Shown here in pieces: positions 8,970-33,360 of a stretch of 44,627 nucleotides of DNA (positions are counted from its first letter, which is position 1; every line of letters starts with the position of its first letter). The DNA is from Candidatus Gastranaerophilales bacterium (GTDB taxonomy: Bacteria > Cyanobacteriota > Vampirovibrionia > Gastranaerophilales > Gastranaerophilaceae). The DNA is taken from contig CALVBB010000018.1 of NCBI GenBank assembly GCA_944325705.1, forward strand, positions 1 to 44,627, in the 5' to 3' direction. The notes under the pieces were generated by a model. The model was given only the letters and a program-made list of their open reading frames with translations. It ran no database searches and had not been told where the DNA came from. Position numbers and translations under genes: made by a program.

Positions 8970-10691
8970 TTAATTATAAAGCGGAGCAAGTTTTGCTGAC
9001 TGCTGCGGAATTACACCTTCTTCAATTGACTGATATACTCTGTAGTCAATTACAGGGAAACAGTTGTCAATGCTTTCGATTTTCTTTAATTCAGCATCAT
9101 CAATGTTACCGCTTTCAATCATGTCGCAAATTTTTTCAAATCTGTCAACATGTTCTCTGAATCTGTCTGTAGCATAGTCTTTTGCCTGCCATGTTGTAAT
9201 CAGGAACGGCCAGTCAGAACTTTGTAATAACAAATTTTCTCTTGCCATCTGATTAAGTGCTCTGTGTAAAAGCTTATCCTCAGGGATTTCCGGATATTTA
9301 TCGGCAATTCTGTTGATACGTTTTTCACAAGCGTGGATAATCGGCCACATCCATTCAGTTAAATGATTGTTCCATACATAGAAGTGTCCACCCTGCCCCC
9401 AAGAGCTTTCAGGAATTTGAATTGCTTCTGTCGGCGGATGAGCATGGAGGTATTCACCTGCAGTCATTCTTTCAACTTCCGGAAGGTATGTGTTGAACTT
9501 TCTGATAACCTGCTTAATGAATTCAACGCCTTCAAACCACCAGTGTCCGAAAAGCTCTGTATCAAATGACACCATTACCAGCCCTTCTTTACCGTTGTGA
9601 GATTTTTTGTAATCATTCAACAGATGGTAGATTAATGTTGTATAGTGGTCTGAGTTTTCGTTAATTTTATTCAAAGCAAGCACCGGATCATAGAGCATTT
9701 TATCACCTAAATCAGTTGTTGGAGAAGTAATTCTCCAGTAGTGCATGCCAGATTTGTCGTCTTTTTTGTGGAATTCACGGAAACAGCCGTCGCCAGGGTA
9801 GCCGTCAGCAGCAGACCAAACCTGATAGCCGGCTCTGTCATTTCTGCCCATAACAGCAACCTGAGCATCCGGAAGCCAGTAAGCAGAATAGGTATCATAA
9901 CCGGTTGCAGGACGTTCCGGAAGCGGAATATACTCAATATTACCGTAAACTCCGATTACACGGCGATTACCGATTGAATTTCCGCCTTCAATTACGTGAG
10001 ACTCTGTAAAGAAGTATTCAATGTCGTTGTTTTGAAGAGTAACTTCAATAGCCGGCCTCCAGTGTTTTTTACCGTCTTTGCCAACGTATTCATAACCTTG
10101 TCTGTAAGCACATTCCGGAAGCCAGCAGCCTTTAGCTTTTCTTCCGAAAAGTCGTTTGGTAGTGTCTGAGCCTACTTTAAACTGTGCGTTCAGGTTGCTG
10201 TCAGTTGCAAGCAGAGGTGAGAACCCGTGAGTAGCACCGGAGGTTGTAATTTCAATACAGCCTAAATCCTGATACTTTTTAAACTCACCGATTAAGTCCA
10301 TTCCGTATTTGTTTACAAAAGAATCTTTAATATGATTAAACCAGTCAAAATAATATTTTGCCAGATATTTTAAGTGCTGGGAATGAGCAACTTTAGGATC
10401 AGGATAGCGTTCAAGGTCTTTTGTAACCTGAGCAATCCTTGAATCCAAATATTTAACAAACCCATGCTTGAGGTGTTCATCATTAAGCTGTTCAGCCAAA
10501 ATCGGAGTAATTCCGACAGTCAACTTGGCTTTAATCCCTTCTTCATACAGTTCGGAAATAGCGTTCAACAAAGGAACATAAGTTTCCGCCATACATTCAT
10601 AAAGGTTTTCTTCCCCGAAAGGCCACATGCCTGCCATTCTATAGTAAGGAAGATGGCTGTGTAACATAAATACGAATTGTCCTACTGACAT
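8970..10691 (-). CDS. glycoside hydrolase family 57 protein (1,4-alpha-glucan branching type)
   Basis: A 573-aa GH57 enzyme. Family motifs are visible in order: MLHSHLPYY near the start, ITTSGATHGFSPLL, WLPECAY with the presumed nucleophile Glu, and VMVSFDTELFGHWWFEG with the presumed acid Asp; a helical C-terminal domain follows (SSWGQGGHFYVWN onward). This pattern fits GH57 branching enzymes of the DUF1957 group, which act on glycogen-like alpha-glucan in the cytoplasm. The start is set at MSVGQF because GGAGG stands 5 bases upstream; the frame is open 25 codons further. No other glycogen gene is adjacent, so branching rather than amylase activity is inferred from motif similarity. Confidence 0.88.
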   Translation of the reverse strand: MSVGQFVFMLHSHLPYYRMAGMWPFGEENLYECMAETYVPLLNAISELYEEGIKAKLTVGITPILAEQLNDEHLKHGFVKYLDSRIAQVTKDLERYPDPKVAHSQHLKYLAKYYFDWFNHIKDSFVNKYGMDLIGEFKKYQDLGCIEITTSGATHGFSPLLATDSNLNAQFKVGSDTTKRLFGRKAKGCWLPECAYRQGYEYVGKDGKKHWRPAIEVTLQNNDIEYFFTESHVIEGGNSIGNRRVIGVYGNIEYIPLPERPATGYDTYSAYWLPDAQVAVMGRNDRAGYQVWSAADGYPGDGCFREFHKKDDKSGMHYWRITSPTTDLGDKMLYDPVLALNKINENSDHYTTLIYHLLNDYKKSHNGKEGLVMVSFDTELFGHWWFEGVEFIKQVIRKFNTYLPEVERMTAGEYLHAHPPTEAIQIPESSWGQGGHFYVWNNHLTEWMWPIIHACEKRINRIADKYPEIPEDKLLHRALNQMARENLLLQSSDWPFLITTWQAKDYATDRFREHVDRFEKICDMIESGNIDDAELKKIESIDNCFPVIDYRVYQSIEEGVIPQQSAKLAPLYN

Positions 10692-10847
10692 TTGCGCCTC
10701 CATATCTCTCTTAACTTGAATTATTATATAACTATAATCCAATTCCGTTATTTTAATATATAGCACAACCGGGTTAAAAATATAATCCTTCAGAACTAAT
10801 TCTTGTGAATAATGTTACAAAAGTTAAAATATAAAATGTATATTCTT

Positions 10848-11184
10848 ATTACATAAAGGAATATGCTAGTGCGCAAATGGTACTATTATATTCCTTTTAT
10901 TACTTTTATTTTTGTATGTTCATTTCTTTCTCTTTTATTGCGAATTAAAAGAGAAAGAAATGAACAAAAGAAAGAGAAAACGCAATCGTTTACAGCGTCG
11001 CTTCGCGCCGCGAATCAAATGGAAGCAGTTGAAGGCGATACCTTCAACCTTTTTTGCTCGCTATCGCGGCTGCGCAGCACGCTCACAGGAAAACCCTCCG
11101 GCGCTTGCGCCACCTCCCTTACAAGAGAGGTAAGGAGAATATATGCTAGTGCCTTTCGCGCACTAGCATATTCCCTTATGTAAT
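10848..11184. mobile_element. 337-bp MITE-like repeat with 33-bp terminal inverted repeats
   Basis: The ends 10848-10880 and 11152-11184 are inverted repeats matching at 30 of 33 positions, and both contain ATATGCTAGTGCGC. Inside is a perfect inverted repeat with 21-bp arms (10918-10967 region) and a GC-rich block with patches such as GTCGCTTCGCGCCGCGAA. A block of about 140 bp recurs inverted in the repeat at 24784-25255. The ORFs inside are low-complexity and basic and are not believable. This fills the 10692-11298 gap together with the rpsT promoter. Confidence 0.75.
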
Positions 11185-11200
11185 AATTTTAACAAACCTA

Positions 11201-11229
11201 TTGAAAATAAAAGTTTTTTTATATAATAT
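11201..11229 (+). promoter_or_regulatory. rpsT promoter
   Basis: TTGAAA (11201-11206) is followed by TATAAT (11222-11227, 15-nt spacer) or TAATAT (11224-11229, 17-nt spacer). It sits right beside the repeat element, which may have moved close to the promoter. Confidence 0.5.
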
Positions 11230-11298: not shown

Positions 11299-11568
11299 AT
11301 GGCAAATATTAAATCTGCTAAAAAAAGAGTTCTCATAGCTGAGAAAAACAGAGTTAGAAATGTAGCTTTCAAAACTTCTATCAAAACAGCTGTAAAAAAA
11401 GTGCTTGAACTTGCTAAAGGTGAAGATAAAGAAGCTTTAAACACAGCACTTTCTAAAGCTTACCAGCTATGCGATAAAGCTGTAGGAAAAGGCATATTGC
11501 ACAAAAATACAGCTGCCAGAAAAAAATCAAGATTAACTATTGCTGTAAATAAATTACAGACAAAATAG
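11299..11568 (+). CDS. rpsT: 30S ribosomal protein S20
   Basis: An 89-aa basic protein, the usual S20 length. MANIKSAKKRVLIAEKNR and the C-terminal HKNTAARKKSRL are typical of S20, a primary 16S rRNA-binding protein assembled early in the small subunit. The start has AAGGAAAAC upstream. Single gene with its own promoter and terminator. Confidence 0.97.
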   Translation: MANIKSAKKRVLIAEKNRVRNVAFKTSIKTAVKKVLELAKGEDKEALNTALSKAYQLCDKAVGKGILHKNTAARKKSRLTIAVNKLQTK

Positions 11569-24783: not shown

Positions 24784-25255
24784 TTAAGGGAATAGACTGG
24801 TGCACAAATGGTGCAAGTTTATTTTCTTATTAAGTTAATTTCTTTTCTTTTGTTGCGATGCAAAAGAAAAGAAATTGACGAAAGAAAATAAAACACGCGA
24901 CCAAAAGAAACGAGTTAGCAGAAACAAACCAATGTTTCTGCACCTTCCTTTGACCGACCTAAAGGTCGGTAAGGTGTGCGTGTGCGGTAGCACGAACGAG
25001 CTGAGGGTGACGTGCGGTGCCGGCTTGTGTGAGCAAGAAGCACCCCCCCCCTTGAGGTTTTTAAGGCATCGCCTTCAACTGCTTCCATTTGCTTCGCGGC
25101 GCGAAGCGACGCTGTAAACGATTGCGTTTTTCTCTTTCTTTGCCTCGTTTCTTTCTCTTTTAATCAGCAATAAAAGAGAAAGAATTGAACATACAAAAAT
25201 AAAATTAATAAAGAAATATGATAGTGCCTTTTGCACACCAGGTCTGTTTTCTTAA
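24784..25255. mobile_element. 472-bp interspersed repeat, same family as 10848-11184
   Basis: The ends are imperfect inverted repeats of about 28 bp (24784-24811 and 25227-25255) that share TTAAG, AGAC, TGGTG and GCAAA words. Two long hairpins lie just inside: arms of 16 bp around 24840-24879 and of 14 bp around 25150-25187. About 140 bp (25063-25206) is the inverse of the core of the 10848 repeat. A run of nine C (25043-25051) and the block GAGCTGAGGGTGACGT (shared with 36567) are present. No transposase and no believable ORF. This accounts for the gap 24715-25323. Confidence 0.7.
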
Positions 25256-33169: not shown

Positions 33170-33360
33170 TAAGTTCTTTTCTTTTTTAGCCAGAAAAAAG
33201 AAAAGAAAAATCGGCGATAGATTAGAGTGTTGCTGCGCGCCGCAGAACCAAACGTAAATACTTGAAGGCTTTGCCTTCAACCTCTAAGGGCGTTCTTCTT
33301 GCTCACTCATGATTAACAGAACTAGTTTGTGGGGGTTTATGGGCGCATAGCCCGTGAGAT
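33170..33360. repeat. degenerate member of the hairpin repeat family
   Basis: A long hairpin TTCTTTTCTTTTTT/AAAAAAGAAAAGAA (33174-33208) is followed by GTTGCTGCGCGCCGCAGAACC and TTGAAGGCTTTGCCTTCAACC, the same order of parts as in the repeats at 10848 and 24784. No clear terminal inverted repeats are left. Together with the 5' region of the HD-GYP-like gene it accounts for the gap 33109-33505. Confidence 0.55.

Follow-up and report, generated by a model that had tools for sequence, protein, structure and literature searches.

Intergenic MITE-like elements of Candidatus Gastranaerophilales with potential intrastrand triplex modules and with interiors that differ by inversion and exchange

The DNA upstream of rpsT in the window (viz. 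the whole stretch of 44,627 nucleotides analysed here, which is contig 18 of the genome G000, a 1.95-Mb assembly in 44 contigs) contains an element that is real and not an artefact, and it belongs to a family whose surprising feature is a three-way matched triplex module. On balance it is probable that this is a Correia-like family of non-autonomous MITEs, which was dispersed by a TA-targeting transposase and is now evolving by inversion and the exchange of modules. Triplex motifs and the inversion of MITEs are each known, and their union in one element was not found in the literature searched, which lies mostly outside the subscription journals; these searches also agree with the remark in an earlier note on this DNA that its author knew of no such elements described in this group, the component kinds being known. 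Intrastrand triplex motifs have been known in bacteria since 2000, and no function or tie to mobile DNA had been assigned to them. In the present family the three arms of the motif stay matched over dozens of sequence variants, with a mirror symmetry for which neither duplication nor inversion readily accounts. The positions of the motif are fixed within elements that themselves invert and swap parts, which makes them a natural test system for triplexes in genome rearrangement.

The element beside rpsT and its family

The element beside rpsT has type-a ends (AAGGAATATG...CATATTCCCT) and extends from position 10856 to 11176, these boundaries being inferred from 20 paired type-a elements. It is flanked by TA on the left (10854-10855) and on the right (11177-11178), as a putative target duplication, and outside of these the flank TTATTACA (10846-10853), which is identical in the genomes G004, G005, G006 and G011, is an inverted copy of positions 11179-11186 (TGTAATAA). 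The inverted ends noticed earlier are real, with 10848-10880 and 11152-11184 matching at 30 of 33 positions, and inverted arms can be followed over 46 nt (10846-10891 and 11141-11186), of which 40 (87%) are complementary. On the forward strand, the left end forms a predicted hairpin with a 7-nt loop GCAAATG (10858-10894) and the right end one with 12-bp arms (11141-11171). Further inside are the arms 10910-10937 and 10946-10973 (28 nt, 89%), and the perfect 21-bp hairpin that had been reported is present within them (10917-10937 and 10946-10966); however, rather than being a plain palindrome it makes up two thirds of a triplex motif that has mirror symmetry. The folds are far stabler than those of shuffled sequence (z of -14.0 and -9.4), the former value being that of the rpsT element, whose fold energy of -148.5 kcal/mol was compared with 100 shuffles. 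An open frame of 106 aa spans the element (10863-11183). As this frame matched no Pfam family and the interiors of orthologous copies are different, it does not represent a conserved gene, in keeping with the lack of coding capacity that had been claimed.

The neighbours are rpsT for ribosomal protein S20 (11299-11568, forward strand) and a divergent gene for a GH57 branching enzyme (8970-10766, reverse strand). The TTGAAA of the putative -35 region of rpsT, as read from the sequence, is at 11201-11206, 16 bases after position 11184. The effect of the element on rpsT is probably neutral, as relatives that are free of the element retain a similar promoter at rpsT. In G003, G012 and some other genomes, the region upstream of rpsT (loci L083, L084, L106, L108 and L079) contains a type IV prepilin-like gene with a run of 10-13 G in its 5' part, which looks like a slipped-strand phase-variation tract, and G runs of a similar kind are seen near L027.

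The family consists of non-coding elements of about 0.3-1.15 kb, bounded by terminal inverted repeats and flanked by TA (on each side in nearly all copies), with two types of ends, the sequences of which are AGGGAATAG or AAATATGTTATCGG. The type-a end, TA-AGGGAATAGACTAGTGC-GCAAAAG-GCACTAG..., forms a hairpin on its own, with a 7-nt loop and mostly 12-15 of 15 pairs; of the 15 pairs, 12.1 vs 11.8 were obtained in a comparison for covariation, a difference too slight to carry weight as evidence. The type-b end reads CATA-AAATATGTTATCGGAAG. Inverted pairs of type-a ends are 411-763 bp apart, or 317-763 bp when the window copy is counted, and those of type-b ends 451-1146 bp. A search of the whole genome, as had been proposed, established that the family is multi-copy, with 31 matches, whole or partial, in G000. 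Matches to the element are present in 38 of 99 relatives, and type-b cores in 23 of the 191 genomes of the family Gastranaerophilaceae, from 7 genera; 8-kb loci around rpsT from 80 other genome records yielded too few further copies for use. All 27 copies that were examined are intergenic, in divergent, tandem and convergent settings, and some are located a short distance upstream of rplF, rpsB, smpB, pnp and rpsP-like genes (the names of neighbours come from reading their translations, Pfam having been applied to S20 alone). Outside the genus, contigs of several genomes end within a type-b element, which suggests recent near-identical copies there. Elements with type-b ends from other genera (L331, L333, L335 and L337) carry further hairpin classes, e.g. 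GGTACTTTCTTG...CAAGAAAGTACC and GCCCCATTTCTTTG...CAAAGAAACGGGGC. Another element, near the end of contig 38 of G135 (L340), has two flanks that are mutually inverted copies; either it was inserted into the middle of a terminator palindrome, or the assembly has folded back on itself here.

A second, larger member of the family with type-a ends is located at 24787-25252 in the window, between TA at 24785-24786 and at 25253-25254, and its kinship with the rpsT element, which had been pointed out earlier, is confirmed by a match of 90% over 182 bp in inverted orientation. It carries a left triplex module on the forward strand (24834-24893) and a right one with the order X-X'-Y on the reverse strand (25127-25184). 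A module remnant with X' and Y fused, at 33170-33309 on the reverse strand, comes from an apparently decayed element.

The hairpin nature of the ends, with the loops and pairing described above, could also be read as a REP/REPIN-type system, in which a RAYT (Y1 transposase) acts on the hairpins, and RAYT genes are indeed present in 4 of 13 congeneric genomes (G004, G006, G008 and G011). However, these RAYTs adjoin a repeat of their own, GTAGGTTGGGCATACCTGCCCAAC, which is absent from the present elements, G000 and G005 have many elements and no Y1 gene, and long terminal inverted repeats are not a feature of REPs. We consider this reading very improbable, and the link to REPIN/RAYT was rejected as the RAYTs belong to the separate repeat. 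The RAYT genes beside GTAGGTTGGGCATACCTGCCCAAC repeats at L308, L309, L310 and L311 constitute a separate REP-like family in the genus.

Insertion sites and changes in place

The proposed check for empty sites gave a filled/empty difference upstream of smpB, where the element is present in G005 and G011 and absent in G000, G002, G003, G007 and G012, so that both filled and empty sites, as expected of a MITE, are found among relatives. At the empty sites the same upstream gene (27-29% amino acid identity to the G005 gene, over the full length) is followed directly by the smpB promoter region. The junction CCATA[AGGG...CCCT]TAATCTATTTGTG, when compared with ACATAATTTTCTGTG in G002, fits a single TA in the empty state. 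A duplication of the TA target is therefore likely and not proved, because this is a single site and the empty sites have diverged; alternatively, the TA could belong to the terminal repeat. At pnp the neighbourhood is rearranged and no clean empty site was seen. G007 (L352) and contig 2 of G000 (L353) have identical sequence upstream of smpB, and yet these two species differ at other loci; either the region was transferred recently, or a contig is misplaced in the assembly of G000.

At rpsT the element (TTATTACATAAGG...CCTTATGTAATAA) is located at one point in five species (G000, G004, G005, G006 and G011), with lengths of 323-752 bp and flanks that are 88-99% identical. The element is thus not a recent insertion at this site; G008 and G018 do lack an element at rpsT, but their regions there cannot be aligned. 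In G009, a different element with type-b-like ends is found at the identical point. The interior in G000 and G004 is inverted relative to that in G005, G006 and G011, and the elements of G005 and G011 share a common centre of 505 bp (93%) and differ in their right-hand modules, a difference that points to an exchange of modules.

Similar changes are seen elsewhere. The loci L203 (in G011) and L276 (in G006) contain one element of 786 bp, which shows 95.8% identity between them in opposite orientation, the flanks (95% and 93%) being unchanged. A flip in at least one species pair was observed at roughly 9 of the 15 sites compared, including that of the second element of the window, whose interior has the opposite orientation to that of the orthologues in G004, G005 and G006; these flips were scored between species and imply no rate within a strain. 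Elements with type-a ends also invert, viz. at rpsT, at 24787-25252, and at L231/L237 and L240/L245. At one site, five species from across the genus hold five interiors, of which two are similar.

Fixed sites with exchanged and flipped interiors are also what cassette exchange would yield, if these were invertible segments under a site-specific recombinase, with the type-b ends being Xer/dif-like (CATAA-N6-TTATCGGAAG) and XerCD or a relative flipping and swapping the cassettes. When the type-b ends are compared with the B. subtilis dif (PMC3025954), as many as 22 of 28 positions agree (the median over 65 ends is 19), against a background of none above 20 of 28 in 400 kb of G011 strands, and the core recurs with identical sequence between genes of several unrelated viral contigs. 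However, the type-a ends, inclusive of those of the rpsT element, are without the right-hand half of the dif-like core and yet invert, and the outer half-site is poorly conserved. GC skew in G011 proved too weak to reveal where the chromosomal dif of the group lies; Kono et al. likewise failed to locate dif in Cyanobacteria. Based on these observations, control by such a recombinase appears unlikely. On the viral contigs (L359-L361 and L363-L366), which differ in G+C, the sequence CATAA(A/T)ATATGTTATCGG between genes perhaps marks dif-like sites at which phages integrate with the help of the host's Xer recombinases, and two patterns for the triplex module found none on these contigs, which have dif-like cores only.

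The triplex module

The module has the order X-loop-X'-spacer-Y, where X is a pyrimidine 5' arm, X' a purine 3' arm and Y a second purine run. Modules adjoin the element ends, and the hinge from X' to Y is mostly 5-8 nt. In the rpsT element the module (10918-10980, forward strand) consists of X at 10918-10937, a loop, the X' core at 10947-10960 (AAAAGAGAAAGAAA), the spacer TGAACA, and Y at 10967-10980 (AAAGAAAGAGAAAA), which is an exact mirror of the X' core. Y is thus the reverse, and not the complement, of X'. An inverted repeat, a short hinge and a third arm mirroring the purine arm, the marks of an intrastrand triplex (PIT), are all present, and because the mirror repeat of the purine arm adjoins its own inverted repeat, the geometry is that of an A/T-rich potential intrastrand triplex, with the purine motif on one strand and the pyrimidine motif on the opposite strand.

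The mirror relationship holds across the family. When Y was chosen by position and purine content alone, the mirror repeat outscored the direct one in 40 of the 47 distinct combinations, with 5 ties and 2 losses. For 34 X' classes with one representative each, the mirror match was 0.956 and the direct match 0.830, as compared with 0.736 +/- 0.021 for permuted partners (0 of 2000 permutations), a figure that is no strict probability due to the relatedness by descent of the representatives. In an independent scan, 200 kb of unselected DNA sampled from G011 at fixed spacing yielded 8 modules, whereas 2 Mb of first-order Markov sequence yielded none. Where the triplex meets the lower stem, a mismatch is A.C on the side of the purine third strand, i.e. 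G.T or G.U on the other, in 13 cases vs 1 among 64 distinct stems, and this bias hints at an importance of the pyrimidine form, possibly at the level of RNA.

Alternatively, the elements might be structured RNA genes or cis-acting RNAs that are kept for their fold, in which the pyrimidine third strand would form a Hoogsteen triple helix in the transcript. The very stable fold, the covariation of X, X' and Y, and the G.U-compatible mismatch at the junction are all consistent with an RNA of this kind. However, an Rfam search gave no family above the gathering score for the element, and each strand of a complete element bears both orientations of the module. Further, copies occupy every gene orientation, flip in place and differ twofold in length at one site, and due to this no constant transcript is kept. 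A role of the elements as RNA is accordingly improbable. It is also possible, although less likely than not, that the elements work through the triplex module, in a family built around an intrastrand triplex under selection; the three-stranded structure might be recognized or exploited by the replication fork or by a transposase or recombinase to flip and reshuffle intergenic cassettes.

Dispersal and likeness to known systems

For the Correia-like MITE family that we favour, the following course of events can be envisaged. A transposase acting in trans probably recognized the ends, targeted TA and dispersed the copies, and copies once inserted persist at their site through the life of several species. 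Comparison of orthologous sites shows that they flip between their own ends and trade internal modules with other copies. As X' is predicted to pair with X and is mirrored by Y, the module could fold back into an intrastrand triple helix, and such structures may stall replication or be extruded as single strands, thereby provoking inversions and exchanges. Favoured by these structures, inversion and module exchange would be the main events at present. The earlier description as MITE-like holds in that the elements are short, non-coding, bounded by terminal inverted repeats, flanked by TA and dispersed in many copies, with at least one filled/empty difference. However, the autonomous transposon with the same ends that had been suggested was not found as a long copy in the genomes searched, inclusive of G223 and other genera, where paired ends are never more than about 1.15 kb apart, and a gene for a DDE_3 (IS630-type) transposase is present in 0 of 13 congeneric genomes. 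Due to this, the term MITE-like is used rather than MITE, and an assignment to the IS630/Tc1-mariner MITEs was rejected.

TA is the insertion target of the Correia elements. The present elements resemble those of Neisseria (CREE/NEMIS) in being non-coding and mostly located upstream of genes, with inverted ends and with TA where they are inserted, and in inverting in place, as described for Correia elements by Elbeyioglu 2017 according to its citation in PMC10969869. However, Correia elements are roughly 0.1-0.16 kb, whereas those described here are 0.3-1.1 kb with unrelated ends, and they have a modular interior with triplex modules and interiors that are traded between sites. Invertons (PMC11892184) are similar in that DNA flips between inverted repeats; the present elements differ from them in a highly structured interior and in being without a linked recombinase or a demonstrated promoter switch. 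With the dif modules of Acinetobacter (PMC6449649, PMC12907356) they share inversely oriented bounding sites, content that is swapped at fixed sites and, for type b, dif-like ends, but they are gene-free, chromosomal and intergenic, and their type-a ends are not dif-like.

The module itself is comparable to the PIT / BoxC / TM_ECO intrastrand triplex motifs catalogued by Hoyne (2000) and Holder (2015, PMC4666352), which likewise have the order X-loop-X'-loop-Y with a purine arm that pairs with both others, and are intergenic, repeated and tied to local rearrangement. In contrast to these, the present modules are A/T-rich, with arms of 10-16 nt and a hinge of 5-8 nt, and lie beside the ends of elements with terminal inverted repeats. 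Holder et al. (PMC4666352) linked the E. coli motif to local rearrangement, and found no stable triplex in vivo and no association with transposons. The G/C-rich triplex motif of these authors is also present inside some elements of the family described here.
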